From NCBI GenBank assembly GCA_017411385.1, contig JAFQQF010000009.1:1-64000 (forward strand): a stretch of DNA of 64,000 bases, given 5' to 3'. The notes under the pieces were generated by a model. It made no database searches. It was not told where the DNA came from and saw only the letters and a list, made by a program, of their open reading frames with translations. Positions 27,400-59,016 of the stretch are shown here, piece by piece (positions within the stretch are counted from its first letter, which is position 1; every line of letters starts with the position of its first letter). Both the position numbers and the translations under genes were made by a program. Source of the DNA: Ruminococcus sp. (GTDB lineage: Bacteria; Bacillota; Clostridia; Oscillospirales; Acutalibacteraceae).

Positions 27400-27580
27400 T
27401 AGTGAAATCGTTCGCTTACGCTCACGGTGAAATAATTTACTCCGTAAATTGTGAAATTTGATGCTATCGCATCAAGTGAAATTAAATCCACCCACTCGCC
27501 GTCGAGGCGAATTTCACACGCCGTAGGCGTATTTCACATTGCAGAGCAATATTTCACCCACCCGCAAGGGTGGATTTAGT
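27400..27580. repeat. micro-hairpin array H1
   Basis: Between the two tRNA genes lies a string of short hairpins with different stems separated by a fixed word: four TGAAAT spacers, then three in inverted form, ATTTCA. The outer arms TAAATCCACCC (27483-27493) and GGGTGGATTTA (27568-27578) close the second half. Stems include AATTTAC/GTAAATT, TTGATGC/GCATCAA, TCGCC/GGCGA, ACGCC/GGCGT and ATTGC/GCAAT. The same layout with other stems occurs at 52141-52311. From 27216 to 27400 I see nothing further. Confidence 0.8.
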
Positions 27581-27582
27581 TG

Positions 27583-34136: not shown

Positions 34137-34198
34137 GAAAAAGAAGGCTAAATTGACAGAAAGTTAACAATAATTAAGATCCCTCAAGAGGCACTGCC

Positions 34199-34473
34199 CC
34201 CCCTTGCCTAAAGGGGGATGCACGTAGGGGCGGCGCCTTTGTGGCAGGAGCAAGCATCTGTCTGTAGGGTACGGTGATAGGGACAAAAAGCCCCCCTTGC
34301 CTAAAGGGGGGAAGAATGGCGAAAGCCATTCAGGGGGGATTCAAACCCCAAGGCACCGCGTACCTTACAATCTCACGCACCTTCGATGACAGCCTTTCTG
34401 CGAAAGCGGCAACCCTTTTGTCGGCAAAGCCGACATTTCCCCTAACAGGGGAATTTCCTTTACACAAGGGAGC
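34199..34473. repeat. MITE-like hairpin repeat, partial then full copy
   Basis: A partial copy (CCTTGCCTAAAGGGGG) at 34199, a 45-base flank GGCAGGAGCAAGCATCTG...GGGTACGGTGATAGGGAC at 34247-34284, then a full copy at 34289-34473. The flank recurs in reverse at 47905-47957, so it is part of a longer form of the element. Confidence 0.88.
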
Positions 34474-34574
34474 CTTATAAGCCCTCCTTGTATAAAGGAG
34501 GGTGGGTTTTGCCCACGGCAAAACTCGGGAGGATTGATAAGGGTTCGGCTAAAGCGGACACTTCGGCTGAAATG

Positions 34575-34828
34575 ACAGCATCAAGGTCAATCCCTCAGTC
34601 AGCTTCGCTGACAGCTCCCTCAAAGAGGGAGCCTCTATAAGCCCCCCTTGCCTAAAGGGGGGGAAGAATGGCGAAAGCCATTCAGGGGGGATTCAAACCC
34701 CAAGGCACCGCGTACCTTACAATCCCTCGCCACCTTCGCTGACAGCCTTTCTGCGAAAGCGGCAACCCTTTTGTCGGCAAAGCCGACATTTCCCCTAACA
34801 GGGGAATTTCCTTTACACAAGGGAGCCG
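34575..34828. repeat. MITE-like hairpin repeat, fragment then full copy
   Basis: 34575-34632 is the short form (CCCTCAGTCAGCTTCGCTGACAG...AAAGAGGGAGCC). 34639-34828 is a full copy nearly identical to 34289-34473. Frames across it are not coding; they recur in every copy. Confidence 0.88.
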
Positions 34829-34860
34829 TTATAAATAAGGAGAAGTCTTTTTGAACTACA

Positions 34861-34889
34861 AAAAACCGACTGCAGAAACAGTCGGTTTT
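34861..34889 (-). terminator. intrinsic terminator of metA
   Basis: On the minus strand AAAACCGACTG pairs with CAGTCGGTTTT, followed by a T run, nine bases past the metA stop. Confidence 0.88.
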
Positions 34890-34897
34890 GTGAAGAT

Positions 34898-35815
34898 TTA
34901 TTTGATTTCTGTAATGTCGTAGGGTGTGGTCTGATACACAAAGTAGTTGAGCCAGTTGGAGTAAAGGAGATTCGCGTGGCTTCTCCAGGACACAACGGGA
35001 GCCTTTGTTTCATCGTCATTGGGAAAATAGTTCTTCGGAATTTCGATGGGCTTGCCTGCAGTTTTGTCCCTTACATACTCGTTCTTCAGGGTTTCTGCAT
35101 CGTATTCGGAGTGACCTGTAATGAAAATCTGTCTGCCCAGCTTTGTGCCCACAGCGTAAACGCCTGCCTCCTCGGAGGAAGCTAAAATTCTGAGTTCGGG
35201 TACTGCCTCGATATCCTCACGTCTGACAGTGGTGTGGCGTGAATGAGGCACCATAAACACATCGTCAAAACCGCGGAAGAGTATGGACTGCTTGTAGTCG
35301 GCGGTGTGGGGATATACTCCGAAGAGCTTCTGAGGCAAAGGCTGTTTGTTTATGCCGTAGTGGTAGTAAAGTGCTGCCTGTGCACCCCAGCAGATGTGAA
35401 AGGTGGAGGTTACGTGGGTTTTGCTCCACTCCATAATCTCGCACAGCTCACCCCAGTACTCCACCTCTTCAAAGGGGAGATTTTCCACAGGTGCGCCTGT
35501 GATAATCATTCCGTCAAACTTTCTGTCCTTTATTTCGTCAAAGGTCTTGTAGAACCTAAGCAGATGGTCAGAGGAAACGTTCTTTGACTCGTGGGTTGCT
35601 GTGTGAATAAGCTCAAGCTCTACCTGCAAGGGGGAGTTGCCCAGAAGCCTTACAAGCTGGGTTTCTGTAGCAATCTTTGTGGGCATCAGATTGAGAATTG
35701 CAATCTGCAGAGGACGGATGTCCTGAGTCATAGCTCTGGTTTCTGTAATGACAAAAATGTTTTCGTCGTTCAGAGTCTGGGTTGCAGGAAGCTCATTTGG
35801 AATTTTAATGGGCAT
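34898..35815 (-). CDS. metA: homoserine O-acetyltransferase (MetA type)
   Basis: A 305-residue MetA-family acyltransferase for the first committed step of methionine synthesis. The catalytic Cys is in [16 protein letters not shown], the His in [12 protein letters not shown]. The acyl-CoA specificity position lies in [16 protein letters not shown], where Glu follows PV; published work on Bacillus MetA ties Glu here to acetyl-CoA and Gly to succinyl-CoA, so this enzyme should make O-acetylhomoserine. That product suits the MetY gene upstream on the same strand. AAAGGGA precedes ATG at 35815; a longer frame runs into the repeat and is rejected. Confidence 0.93.
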
Positions 35816-35838
35816 ATAATCGTCCCTTTCGTGAATAA

Positions 35839-35970
35839 TAAGCCCCCCTTGCCTAAAGGGGGGAAGAATGGCGAAAGCCATTCAGGGGGGATTTATACGT
35901 TAAGGCTCTGTTCACCTTACAATCCCTCACCGCCTTTGGCGGAGCTCCCTTTACACAAGGGAGCCTTTTT
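35839..35970. repeat. MITE-like hairpin repeat, short form between metY and metA
   Basis: It has the same left end as the full copies (CCCCCCTTGCCTAAAGGGGG, then the GAATGGC hairpin) but a shorter right part ending CTCCCTTTACACAAGGGAGCC. It lies between the two methionine genes and could affect the transcript that joins them. Confidence 0.85.
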
Positions 35971-35983
35971 TGTGGTTCGGAAT

Positions 35984-37267
35984 TTATACTGCCTCTAAAG
36001 CGTTGTCAATATCAGCAATCAAATCCTCGGCAGCTTCAATACCGCAGGAGAAGCGAACAAGGTCAGGAGAAATTCCTGCTGCCTCAAGCTCTGTGTCGTT
36101 CATCTGGCGGTGTGTTGCGTTTGCGGGATGCAGACAGCAGGTGCGTGCATCTGCAACGTGGGTTTCGATAGCGGCAATTTTCAGGTTTTTCATAAAGGTT
36201 TCTGCTGCAGCTCTGCCGCCCTTTACGCCGAAGGATACAACACCGCATCCGCCGTATTTGAGGTACTTTTTGCCAAGCTCGTAGCACTCGTCACCCTCAA
36301 GTCCGGAGTATCGAACCCAAGCAACCTTGGGGTGGTTCTGCAGATGCTTTGCTACTGCAAGACCGTTTTCGCAGTGGCGCTGCATTCTCAGGTGCAGGCT
36401 TTCAAGACCGAGGTTCAGGTAGAAAGCGTGCTGAGGTGACTGGATGCATCCGAAGTCACGCATAAGCTGAGCGGTAGCCTTTGTGATGTATGCTCCTGCA
36501 AGACCGAAACGCTCGGTGTAGGTAACGCCGTGGTAGCTTTCGTCGGGAGTGCACAGTCCGGGGAATTTGTCGGGGTACTTTGTCCAGTCGAACTTGCCTG
36601 AGTCAACAATGCAACCGCCAACGGATGCACCGTGGCCGTCGATGTACTTTGTGGTAGAGTGGATTACAATGTCAGCACCCCACTCAAAGGGACGGCAGGT
36701 AACGGGAGTTGCAAAGGTGTTGTCAATGATAAGGGGCACACCGTTTTTGTGTGCAATATTTGCAAAGCGTTCAATGTCCAGCACTACTAAAGCAGGGTTT
36801 GCGATGGTTTCGCCGAAAAGTGCCTTTGTGTTGGGCTTGAATGCTGCCTGTATTTCTTCGTCGGAAGCTGTGGGGGAAACGAAGGTGAAGTCAATGCCCA
36901 TACGCTTCATTGTAACCGCAAAGAGGTTGTAGGTGCCGCCGTAGATGGCACTTGAAGCAACAATGTGGTCCCCTGCGCCTGCAATGTTGAAAATGCTGAA
37001 AAAGCTTGCTGCCTGACCTGAGGAGGTGAGCATTGCAGCAGTACCGCCCTCAAGCTCGCAGATTTTCTTGGCAACGTAGTCGTTGGTGGGGTTCTGGAGT
37101 CTTGTGTAGAAGTAACCCTCTGCTTCAAGGTCAAAAAGCTTGCCCATATCCTCGCTTGTGGCATATTTGAAGGTTGTGCTCTGCACAATGGGAATCTGTC
37201 TGGGCTCGCCGTTTGCAGGGGTGTAACCCCCCTGAACGCAGGTTGTGTCTAAATTTTTGTAGTTCAT
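35984..37267 (-). CDS. metY: O-acetylhomoserine sulfhydrylase (MetY-type PLP enzyme)
   Basis: A 427-residue Cys/Met-metabolism PLP enzyme. The PLP lysine is in VIHSTTKYIDGHGASVGG, with the ring-contact region LTSSGQAASFFSIFN and YTRLQNPTNDYVAKKI (in part). The length and the LAGAYITKATAQLMRDFG stretch fit O-acetylhomoserine aminocarboxypropyltransferase rather than the shorter gamma-synthases. It turns O-acetylhomoserine plus sulfide into homocysteine. GGGAGG precedes ATG. Upstream is a leader peptide with consecutive Met codons and a terminator. Confidence 0.93.
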   Translation of the reverse strand: MNYKNLDTTCVQGGYTPANGEPRQIPIVQSTTFKYATSEDMGKLFDLEAEGYFYTRLQNPTNDYVAKKICELEGGTAAMLTSSGQAASFFSIFNIAGAGDHIVASSAIYGGTYNLFAVTMKRMGIDFTFVSPTASDEEIQAAFKPNTKALFGETIANPALVVLDIERFANIAHKNGVPLIIDNTFATPVTCRPFEWGADIVIHSTTKYIDGHGASVGGCIVDSGKFDWTKYPDKFPGLCTPDESYHGVTYTERFGLAGAYITKATAQLMRDFGCIQSPQHAFYLNLGLESLHLRMQRHCENGLAVAKHLQNHPKVAWVRYSGLEGDECYELGKKYLKYGGCGVVSFGVKGGRAAAETFMKNLKIAAIETHVADARTCCLHPANATHRQMNDTELEAAGISPDLVRFSCGIEAAEDLIADIDNALEAV

Positions 37268-37291
37268 AATATTACCTCCCTAAGGAATTGT

Positions 37292-37324
37292 AAAAGGGCA
37301 GTTACCCCATAGGGTATCTGCCCT
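37292..37324 (-). terminator. attenuator hairpin before metY
   Basis: On the minus strand GGGCAG-A-TACCC, loop TATG, GGGTA-A-CTGCCC, then TTTT, lying between the leader peptide and metY. The 5' arm overlaps TTTTTGAGGGC, which can instead pair with GCCTTCAGAAA in the leader coding sequence (11 base pairs counting two G-U), giving an antiterminator. Confidence 0.78.
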
Positions 37325-37355
37325 CAAAAATTCATCTTTGCCGAATGATCGGTGT

Positions 37356-37418
37356 TCAATGATTTCTGAAGGCGGAGTTGCACATCATCATATGAGTTTT
37401 TTCGTAATTGATATACAT
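37356..37418 (-). CDS. Met-rich leader peptide of the metY attenuator
   Basis: A 20-codon frame with AGGAG eight bases before ATG. It reads MYINYEKTH, then three consecutive Met codons and a Cys, then NSAFRNH and stop. It starts 33 bases after the -10 element of a good promoter and lies ahead of an intrinsic terminator and metY. The order promoter, short frame with regulatory codons, terminator, biosynthetic gene is the classical plan of ribosome-mediated attenuation. Shortage of charged tRNA-Met (or Cys) would stall the ribosome and favour the antiterminator. Confidence 0.75.
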   Translation of the reverse strand: MYINYEKTHMMMCNSAFRNH

Positions 37419-37450
37419 TGCAAAGCTCCTGTGTTTCAAAATTTAAGTCA

Positions 37451-37480
37451 ATTATACAGTACAGCTTGTGAGCTTGTCAA
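37451..37480 (-). promoter_or_regulatory. promoter of the metY leader
   Basis: Perfect boxes on the minus strand: TTGACA (37480-37475), 18-base spacer, TATAAT (37456-37451). Confidence 0.85.
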
Positions 37481-37665: not shown

Positions 37666-39198
37666 ATGTTTATTAAAATACTTTTTATTGTTCTGTTTCT
37701 GGTTATTACCATCGGGGTAGGCGTGTATTGCCGAAAAAAGGCAACCGACGTTAACGGCTTTGTGCTGGGCGGAAGAGCAGTAGGCCCTTGGCTGACTGCG
37801 TTTTCTTTCGGTACATCCTATTTTTCTGCTGTTATCTTTGTAGGCTATGCAGGACAGTTCGGTTGGAACTTCGGTCTTGCCTCCACCTGGATAGGACTTG
37901 GAAACGCACTCATCGGTTCCTACCTTGCGTGGAAGGTGCTCGGCAGAAGAACCCGTGTTATGACTCAGCATTTAGGCAGTGCTACAATGCCGGATTTCTT
38001 TGAGAAAAGATATGAGTCAAAGGCACTGAAGCTTGCGGCGGCGGCAATCGTTTTCATCTTTATGATTCCTTATACCGCCTCTCTTTACAATGGTCTTTCC
38101 CGTCTTTTTGAGATGGCTTTCCACATCGACTACTGGGTTTGTGTTGTTGTAATGGCGCTGGTCACAGCCCTGTACGTGGTGCTCTCCGGCTATGTAGGCA
38201 CAGCACTTAACAGCCTTATTCAGGGCATTATAATGCTTATCGGTATTGTTGTTGTAGTTGTTGCCGCTCTCAATGTAAACGGAGGTCTTTCGGCTTCTGT
38301 GGAGCTTCTTTCTCAGGTGGAGCCTGTGGGGGATTACACTTCAATCTTCGGCCCTGACCCTGTGGCACTTCTGGGCGTTGTGCTTCTGACCTCTCTGGGT
38401 ACTTGGGGACTTCCTCAGATGATTGGCAAGTTCTATGCTATTAAGAGCGAAAAGTCCATCAAGACAGGCACCGTGGTTTCCACAGTTTTTGCAGTTGTGG
38501 TTGCAGGCGGTTGCTACTTCCTCGGCGGCTTCGGACGCATATTTATGACAGCAGATGAGGTAAACGGTCAGTTTGACTCCATTATTCCCTCAATGCTTTC
38601 AAAGATTGACTCCGATGTTGTAATTGCACTTGTTATTATGCTGGTGCTTGCGGCTTCAATGTCCACACTTTCGTCTTTGGTGCTCACATCAAGCTCTACT
38701 CTGACGCTTGACTTTATTGCTCCTATGAAAAAGACAAAAATGTCTGAAAAGAGCAAGATGTCAGCTATGAGAATTTTCCTTGTGTTCTTCATTGTTGTGT
38801 CTGCACTTATCGCCATTGTTCAGGCAAGAACAAAGATTGCCTTCATCACAGACCTTATGGGTATCTCTTGGGGCACAATGAGCGGTGCTTTCCTCGGTCC
38901 CTTTATGCTGGGACTTTACTGGAAGCGTGCCACAAAGCCTGCGGTATGGGCAAGCTTTATTTTCAGCGTCAGCATCAATGTTACCTTTATGATATTTAAG
39001 CTCAGCGGAAACATTTCACTTCTTCCCAAGCTTTTGCAGGCATCCTCAAACGTAGGTGTTATTGCAATGCTTGCGGGTATTCTTCTTGTAGTGGTTGTAA
39101 GCCTTCTCACAAAGAAGCCTGATGAAAAGAAGGTTGATGAAATGTTTGAGTGCTACGAAAAGAAGGTTACGGTTTCCCAAAGGGAAGCTTTGGAATAA
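37666..39198 (+). CDS. sodium:solute symporter (SSS family)
   Basis: A 510-residue membrane protein with about 13 hydrophobic helices and the SSS signature GWNFGLASTWIGLGNALIGS plus GTWGLPQMIGKFYAIKSEKS. It would use a sodium gradient to import a solute; the downstream genes suggest an aromatic amino or keto acid, but that is inference. The ribosome site at this ATG is weak. An AGGAGGG lies 50 bases upstream before a hairpin-forming GTTTTTTG...CAAAAAAC segment, so the leader may control translation or the true start may differ. Confidence 0.88.
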   Translation: MFIKILFIVLFLVITIGVGVYCRKKATDVNGFVLGGRAVGPWLTAFSFGTSYFSAVIFVGYAGQFGWNFGLASTWIGLGNALIGSYLAWKVLGRRTRVMTQHLGSATMPDFFEKRYESKALKLAAAAIVFIFMIPYTASLYNGLSRLFEMAFHIDYWVCVVVMALVTALYVVLSGYVGTALNSLIQGIIMLIGIVVVVVAALNVNGGLSASVELLSQVEPVGDYTSIFGPDPVALLGVVLLTSLGTWGLPQMIGKFYAIKSEKSIKTGTVVSTVFAVVVAGGCYFLGGFGRIFMTADEVNGQFDSIIPSMLSKIDSDVVIALVIMLVLAASMSTLSSLVLTSSSTLTLDFIAPMKKTKMSEKSKMSAMRIFLVFFIVVSALIAIVQARTKIAFITDLMGISWGTMSGAFLGPFMLGLYWKRATKPAVWASFIFSVSINVTFMIFKLSGNISLLPKLLQASSNVGVIAMLAGILLVVVVSLLTKKPDEKKVDEMFECYEKKVTVSQREALE

Positions 39199-52140: not shown

Positions 52141-52311
52141 ATGAAATCGTTGCGCGGCAACGATGAAATCTTCACTTCGTTCAGATGAAATCCAAGGACA
52201 AGTCCTCGGATGAAATCAAATCCGTCTAAATACAACCCTGCGAAGCAGGATTTCATCGCAAACGCGATTTCATCCACCAGAGGTGGATTTCACCCGTCGA
52301 AGACGGATTTG
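52141..52311. repeat. micro-hairpin array H3
   Basis: It has the same plan as H1: four TGAAAT spacers (52142, 52163, 52186 and 52210 approximately), an arm AAATCCGTC (52218-52226), three inverted ATTTCA spacers, and the closing arm GACGGATTT (52302-52310). Stems differ from H1: CGTTGC/GCAACG, CCAAGGAC/GTCCTCGG, CCTGC/GCAGG, CGC/GCG, CCACC/GGTGG. No coding potential is seen from 52130 to 52457. Confidence 0.8.
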
Positions 52312-52372
52312 GCTGCGTGTTCTCCGTTAAGGATAACACGCTAAAACGCAGGGATATTTTTTGTCTTTTGTG

Positions 52373-58884: not shown

Positions 58885-58903
58885 TACGATGTTGTAATGT
58901 TTT

Positions 58904-59016
58904 CTGTAACTGGCGGATTTAGTGGGTTACCACGTGGGAGCAGAAAACCTGTTAATTGTCGACCGCCTGGGCAGACTTGTAGCATTACTACAGGTCTGCC
59001 CGGTTTTGTTTTTATT
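58904..59016 (+). ncRNA. ZTP (pfl) riboswitch with terminator
   Basis: The conserved parts are present: GTAACTGGCGG (58907-58917), GTGGGTTACCACGTGGGAGC (58922-58941) and CCGCCTGGGCA (58963-58973). The terminator stem GGGCAGACTTGTAG / CTACAGGTCTGCCC (58969-58982 and 58988-59001) shares GGGC with the aptamer 3' end, so ligand binding should prevent termination. ZTP/ZMP accumulates when folate for purine synthesis is short; the gene that follows is purE. Confidence 0.95.

Follow-up and report, generated by a model that had tools for sequence, protein, structure and literature searches.

The leader region of metY and metA

The window, by which we mean the whole 64,000-nt stretch of Ruminococcus sp. 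DNA that was analyzed, carries metY and metA on its minus strand, and the intergenic region ahead of metY holds a compact series of regulatory elements. A first-pass annotation had described there a consensus promoter, an AGGAG, a 20-codon frame encoding Met-Met-Met-Cys, an 11-pair antiterminator, and a terminator that shares GGGC with it. We located all of these elements in the sequence, each where it had been placed. The features of the window, with the evidence for each, are as follows.

37451..37480, minus strand: sigma-A-type promoter, TTGACA-18-TATAAT (TTGACA 37480-37475, 18-nt spacer, TATAAT 37456-37451)
37426..37430, minus strand: Shine-Dalgarno (SD) sequence AGGAG of the leader ORF (sequence)
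37356..37418, minus strand: leader ORF MYINYEKTHMMMCNSAFRNH, 20 codons plus TGA (present as a homolog in 8 of the 10 close metY copies, counting the window)
37380..37391, minus strand: control codons Met-Met-Met-Cys, ATG ATG ATG TGC (sequence and relatives)
37358..37373, minus strand: antiterminator 5' arm, GCCTTCAGAAA (37373-37363) plus extension, within the leader ORF (folding, alignment)
37320..37336, minus strand: antiterminator 3' arm, GATG...TTTTTGAGGGC (TTTTTGAGGGC at 37330-37320), its GGGC common with the terminator (folding, alignment)
37292..37323, minus strand: intrinsic terminator hairpin GGGCAGATACCCTATGGGGTAACTGCCC (37323-37296) plus TTTT, a short U-tract (sequence; −18.5 kcal/mol)
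37275..37280, minus strand: SD sequence GGGAGG of metY (sequence)
35984..37267, minus strand: metY, O-acetylhomoserine aminocarboxypropyltransferase, ATG at 37267 (TIGR01326, 561.1 bits, cutoff 495.1)
34898..35815, minus strand: metA, homoserine O-acetyltransferase (acetyl-transferring MetA), ATG at 35815 (NF047918, 500 bits, cutoff 460.5)

The antiterminator proved longer than the 11 pairs originally claimed, with an additional short helix enclosing an inner hairpin, and its arm does have GGGC in common with the terminator, whose U-tract in the window is short (TTTTACAA). The protein family matches, both above their cutoffs, bear out the naming of metY and then metA downstream. metA is probably the second gene of the metY unit; the same-strand order of metY and then metA recurs in all nine other close copies and at locus L022. 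The next gene upstream, a sodium/solute symporter gene starting at 37666, lies on the opposite strand. Because it is divergent, a transcript that reaches the hairpin starts in this intergenic region, and the hairpin is to be read as the attenuator of the metY unit rather than as the end of another transcript. The leader peptide has no match in NCBIfam or Pfam, and the leader RNA of the window has none in Rfam.

Dispersed palindromic repeats lie at 34198-35966 of the window, between metY and metA and behind metA (three copies of 88 nt and two of 97 nt); allowing at most one mismatch, the window contains 9 occurrences of their core, CCTTTAGGCAAGGGGGG, against 0 expected. The window also carries two Gut-1 RNAs, one at 27506-27582 between two tRNA genes and one at 52245-52315, and a ZMP/ZTP riboswitch on the plus strand at 58896-58979.

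Conservation and alternative folds in close relatives

When 100 genomes of the genus were searched by protein, every one of them, our own included, had metY, and we examined 30 of these loci. We defined close copies as metY genes of at least 87% identity with upstream sequence, a line chosen in this analysis, which gave 10 copies: the window, eight copies at 87 to 96% identity (L191 to L198), and L031 at 88%. A 95% match in genome G778 is a fragment that lacks its start and was left out. The alignment of metY leaders that the first-pass annotation had proposed finds the Met-codon ORF, antiterminator, and terminator together in 8 of the 10 copies (the window, L191, L192, L194, L196, L197, L198, and L031). 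These eight leaders, the window clade, all have an SD-like stretch, and the window and its seven leader-keeping relatives match the consensus promoter at 12 of 12 bases. Their peptides range from MYINYEKTHMMMCGSAFRSH to MKSLYVNYNMMMCTCAFKN; the Met run is three codons long in seven of them and two in L192, and Cys follows the run in seven, with Arg in its place in L196 (Met-Met-Met-Arg). At 21 other loci of the genus (66 to 72% identity) no such leader was found in the 230 nt upstream, L214 ending at a contig end and L219 containing a run of N, and metY copies only slightly more distant than the close set (78 to 85%) are mostly without one as well.

The remaining two close copies, L193 and L195, keep the promoter and a weak hairpin (−8.3 and −5.1 kcal/mol, respectively) and have neither the leader ORF nor the antiterminator. 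Relatives that lack the Met codons and keep the hairpin had been named in advance as telling against an attenuator, and these two copies do fit that description; because the antiterminator is lost too, however, the entire control segment is gone there and not the codons alone. The place ~130 nt before metY has no leader ORF with an SD sequence in either copy, and in L195 ATGTGCTTATGC stands shortly past the −10 box, perhaps as a remnant. Such losses raise the alternative that the window's attenuator is itself vestigial, still transcribed with its regulation lost and heading toward the L193/L195 state. Its short U-tract, the mere four bases shared by the two helices, and the two leaderless relatives would suit that history, but the Met codons, SD sequence, promoter, and all 10 core antiterminator pairs are intact in 8 of the 10 copies, and we consider it very unlikely.

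The two alternative pairings can be read directly from the alignment. The leader codons contain GCCTTCA(A/G)AA, which pairs with the TTTTTGAGGGC segment, and the 10 core pairs of this antiterminator form in all 80 cells of the alignment (window plus seven relatives), against 33 to 75% when the partner is slid by 1 to 3 columns. This is conservation rather than covariation, since 9 of the 10 pairs never vary, and a shuffle control was not beaten (185/500). The terminator is paired in 93.3% of cells across the eight sequences; variation in both helices is too small to give statistical support for either. The duplex between the leader and the terminator arm (with up to 20 nt before it) beats dinucleotide shuffles in all eight leaders, with 0 to 3 of 200 shuffles equally good.

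The codons GCC and TTC within the antiterminator arm are invariant in all eight leaders, and their third positions are fixed whereas those of codons 3 to 9 vary. This pattern bears on another reading, in which the product of the ORF is a functional small protein rich in Met and Cys and the hairpin is an ordinary weak terminator. The peptide is conserved among the closest relatives, as such a protein would be, but the third positions are fixed in the antiterminator arm and little beyond Met and Cys is common to the leader peptides across genera. We find this explanation scarcely credible.

To follow the folds with ribosome position, we folded the RNA at the length it has when the 3' arm of the terminator is about to be made and scored how far the outer six bases of the 5' arm are held. 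In the window clade this predicted holding is 0.79 to 1.00 for a ribosome whose A-site contains the first Met codon and 0.41 to 0.65 for one at the stop codon, and it falls in all eight leaders. The attenuators of Escherichia coli used as controls go, from stall to stop, from 0.83 to 0.01 (trpL) and from ~0.5 to 0.28 (hisL). Without a ribosome the arm is held at 0.68 to 1.00 in the window clade, against 0.05 in trpL and 0.66 in hisL; in this model, such holding would mean that a failed leader start also favors read-through. Two further computations on the untranslated RNA argue against read-through on a failed start: the leader arm is only 0.23 to 0.70 unpaired, and equilibrium energies favor the terminator in all eight leaders by 1.3 to 5.8 kcal/mol. 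When the first Met codon occupies the A-site, equilibrium favors the terminator in six of eight by 0.4 to 2.4 kcal/mol and the antiterminator in two of eight by 0.3. Because equilibrium energies mostly favor the terminator, the attenuator model needs the antiterminator to form first, in the order of folding. The two structures overlap by only four bases; the antiterminator helix is conserved in all eight leaders, and its 5' arm lies where ribosome cover would reach it. An alternative metric that forbade terminator base pairs was dropped as uninformative, being nearly constant with ribosome position even in trpL.

Leaders of like design across the order

We searched for the pattern SD-ATG-ATGATGATGTGY in three overlapping genome sets, which gave matches in 10 of 398 genomes of the family (SD = GGAG), 32 of 394 genomes of the order (SD = AGG; all five matches initially without a locus were examined too), and 27 of 274 genomes of the class (31 matches). 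Among the matches listed, a reversed-pattern control gave 3 versus 11 in the family, 5 versus 35 in the order, and 7 versus 31 in the class. Most pattern matches are other reading contexts and not leaders. We applied a filter blind to the downstream gene, which demanded an SD sequence, an ORF of at most 60 codons, a promoter of at least 10/12, and a terminator of −8 or better. It passed 9 of 72 distinct ATGATGATGTGY sites at the loci from these searches, which amount to eight distinct leaders because L118 is counted twice (L022 is the same place as L118, and some genomes are possibly present twice). All eight passing MMMC leaders precede sulfur amino-acid genes: metY (window, L115, L118, and L153), metN (L131, L144, and L152), and cysK (L114). 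The MetN proteins downstream carry a NIL domain above the Pfam cutoff and score below the NCBIfam MetN cutoff.

A leader before metG (L116) did not pass because the script used the more distant start codon; measured from the closer one, its promoter matches at 11/12. At L119 a contig end cuts the locus and the downstream gene is missing. L134, a short MMMC ORF, was dropped because it lacks a good promoter and, in the stretch examined, is not followed on its strand by any ORF of 120 codons. In the class search 0 of 27 new loci passed the leader filter, one match (G920, third place) lying outside these loci, and at this sampling of the class the MMMC form is seen only inside the order. Our own genome reads ATGATGATG at 44 places, and of the 30 examined only the window's resembles a leader. 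A Trp-codon pattern run on 127 genomes mostly returned, among the matches listed, what looks like GTGGTGG inside ordinary genes.

Leaders were also sought without the pattern. Candidate lists comprised short ORFs with enough Met or Cys (some lists also admitted any neighboring Met/Cys), and leaders were chosen from them by eye for promoter, SD sequence, and hairpin. A metN search of the order matched 62 of 245 genomes at 64 places; 50 places were examined and 49 had usable upstream sequence, among which seven carry a Met-Cys leader ORF (L223, L225, L226, L227, L229, L232, and L299). L223 contains just two internal Met and a single Cys, and L225 has a weak SD sequence and a 9/12 promoter. The 110 metY loci screened (30 plus the best 80 of 582) yielded six leaders (window, L022, L031, L040, L050, and L074), and another 40 metY loci, taken in list order with a few places skipped, yielded none.

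After setting aside the window clade and L022, and dropping L227 and L229 as near copies of L226, eight distinct peptides found without requiring MMMC remain, and all eight contain Met-Cys (permutation P = 0.00025); for the seven metN leaders by themselves P is 0.0004. Both P values are optimistic because the leaders were picked by eye. Counting L231 would make the proportion eight of nine. That doubtful candidate before metN, left out of the counts, has few Met or Cys codons and no Met-Cys, but its alternative pairing with the terminator arm is very strong (−33.8 kcal/mol, equaled by none of 200 shuffles). Two other leaders before metN, L152 and L299, have TMCMCMP in common, with DDR a few residues on, and otherwise differ. 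By raw counts in an amino-acid-pair screen M+C is not the top pair, A/R and L/R type pairs leading; set against ten block shuffles, M+C clusters occur at 5 of 29 metN loci versus 0 to 1, and against shuffled sequence at 6 of 109 metY loci versus 0 to 3 and 4 of 28 genus loci versus 0 to 1.

Leaders of this kind with a genome handle are spread over seven family-level groups of the order (f1, f13, f14, f18, f20, f21, and f26), and before metY, metN, cysK, and metG they accompany a minority of copies. The leaders of metN, cysK, metG, and other metY genes repeat the design in sequence unrelated to the window's. In a set of 24 leaders (the 8 of the window clade and 16 distant ones including L231), mean holding is higher across the Met/Cys codons than at the stop codon in 21; L116, L119, and L225 do not fit. 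Of three more leaders that were scored, two fit (L050 and L074), and for L040 a stop-codon value is lacking; L299 stands outside the set. The duplex test against shuffles falls below 0.05 in 6 of the 16 distant leaders (L115, L118, L226, L229, L231, and L232) and in 0 of the 3 further ones. The attenuator design is thus clear in many distant leaders and not proven in each.

Methionine genes of Firmicutes are usually attributed to control by SAM riboswitches and T-boxes. Both were rejected for this leader, in whose region no Rfam covariance model matches. Of 24 genomes, 16 have SAM-I riboswitches, among them our own, where the single one precedes metK (a gene named by eye from its translated sequence); two T-boxes reach the gathering score among 30 metN loci (L236 and L240). 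A metabolite riboswitch of a new type, with the leader ORF incidental, would account for a conserved 5' RNA and terminator before a methionine gene, which is the usual sign of one, and would sit comfortably in a genome that already has a riboswitch before metK. We judge it highly improbable, for no Rfam match was found at 20 loci with 17 distinct leaders, the RNA between the two antiterminator arms is variable within the window clade, and the metN, cysK, and metG leaders are alike in amino acids and not in peptide sequence.

Proposed mechanism and known counterparts

The sequence shows the elements and how they are arranged, that close relatives conserve them, that two alternative pairings can form, and that leaders built this way recur ahead of further genes of sulfur amino-acid metabolism. 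With good confidence we read the locus as an attenuator of transcription that works through a translating ribosome, as at trp and his, and that is keyed to Met and possibly also to Cys. Three features are those expected of one: a short ORF with an SD sequence between the promoter and the first gene, an intrinsic terminator, and control codons kept in relatives. A fourth is the match between the codon run and downstream genes for making, importing, or charging that amino acid (MMMC before metY-metA; metN, metG, and cysK elsewhere). The first-pass annotation's reading of the locus as ribosome-mediated attenuation is therefore largely supported by the anatomy, by conservation in 8 of 10 close copies, and by leaders of like design and unrelated sequence elsewhere. 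What we infer from these data is that the leader is translated, that ribosomes stall on it, that transcription terminates, which way control runs, and what the effector is.

RNA polymerase would start near 37444, as placed from the −10 box, and a ribosome would follow on the 20-codon leader. Were charged elongator Met-tRNA scarce, the ribosome would wait at the Met codons and leave GCCUUCAGAAAUCAU free to pair with GAUG..UUUUUGAGGGC; the resulting antiterminator would hold the GGGC base of the terminator, and transcription would continue into metY-metA. Were Met-tRNA plentiful, a ribosome at the stop codon would cover GCCUUCAGAAAUCAU, the terminator would form, and transcription would end near 37292. 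Because Met also starts every protein, a Met-codon switch raises the question of how a lack of Met is sensed by a leader that itself needs Met to begin. Failed initiation for want of fMet-tRNA might act in the same direction, so that the device would answer Met shortage even without a leader start, although our computations disagree on this point.

The original emphasis on Met stands, with the refinement that Cys often accompanies it. The same device could instead sense a shortage of Cys, or of both sulfur amino acids equally, by stalling at Cys or at either codon. Cys follows the Met run in seven of the eight window-clade leaders, Met-Cys is present in all eight distinct MMMC-independent leaders, and the cysK leader (L114) has seven Cys. 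With Cys in the A-site, holding remains near 0.8 in L192, L197, L198, and L031, but in the window and L191 (0.50) and in L194 (0.66) it is about the stop value, since a ribosome so placed would cover GCCT. L196, moreover, reads Met-Met-Met-Arg with all else kept, and the metN and metG targets point to Met. We regard Cys sensing as unlikely, if less so than the other alternatives considered above, and continue with the attenuator keyed to Met. A more speculative extension, which we offer tentatively as a possibility, is that the Met-Cys dipeptide is itself the sensing unit of a device dispersed through the order, either as a two-amino-acid sulfur gauge responding to a lack of Met-tRNA or Cys-tRNA or through nascent-chain-specific arrest. 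The recurring pair provides a simple signature by which further members could be found and a concrete hypothesis of joint Met/Cys sensing. Within the genome a division of labor seems to exist, with SAM sensed at metK and the amino acid at metY-metA.

We conclude that the observation is real, that it is wider than first noted, and that it is best read as a Met/Cys leader-peptide attenuator, new for Clostridia as far as the literature searched shows. No Met leader in Firmicutes was met in the portions of the open-licence literature searched, which does not prove its absence. Leader-peptide attenuation as such has precedents in Firmicutes, for other amino acids and in other lineages. The Leu-rich attenuator peptide of Staphylococcus aureus ilv-leu is supported by mutants (PMC5794164, where predicted branched-chain leaders of Lactococcus and Streptococcus are cited as well), and His leaders are predicted in Firmicutes (PMC2965389, PMC9413887). 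Cys leaders have been predicted in Actinobacteria (PMC1262725), as has a cysS upstream ORF with Cys codons in Rhodobacterales (PMC8632094). Like the leaders described here, these place Cys codons in a leader ORF ahead of cysteine genes; the excerpted accounts mention no Met runs, and the Mycobacterium leaders are described there as lacking conserved terminator hairpins (PMC1262725, PMC8632094).

The closest mechanistic likeness is to the trp and his attenuators of Proteobacteria (E. coli trpL and hisL), which have the same succession of tandem-codon leader ORF, alternative helix, terminator, and biosynthetic gene. As in trpL, holding of the terminator arm drops from stall to stop. Unlike those attenuators, the window's leader uses Met and Cys codons and resides in a clostridial host; unlike trpL, its clade shows a smaller drop and an arm held without a ribosome, though the latter is also seen in hisL. 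The first-pass annotation had called a Met-codon attenuator unusual, and it is, but an incomplete precedent is reported in the metL leader of Streptomyces lividans TK24, which has Met and Cys codons, precedes metNIQ, lies on a leaderless transcript, and yielded no typical terminator (PMC8079986). That leader resembles ours in combining Met and Cys codons, Met-Cys pairs included, there ahead of a methionine transporter; it differs in being actinobacterial, leaderless, without a typical terminator, and placed before metNIQ rather than metY-metA (PMC8079986). If the Met-Cys dipeptide is a sensing unit, its presence in S. lividans metL as well would make it either convergent or ancient.
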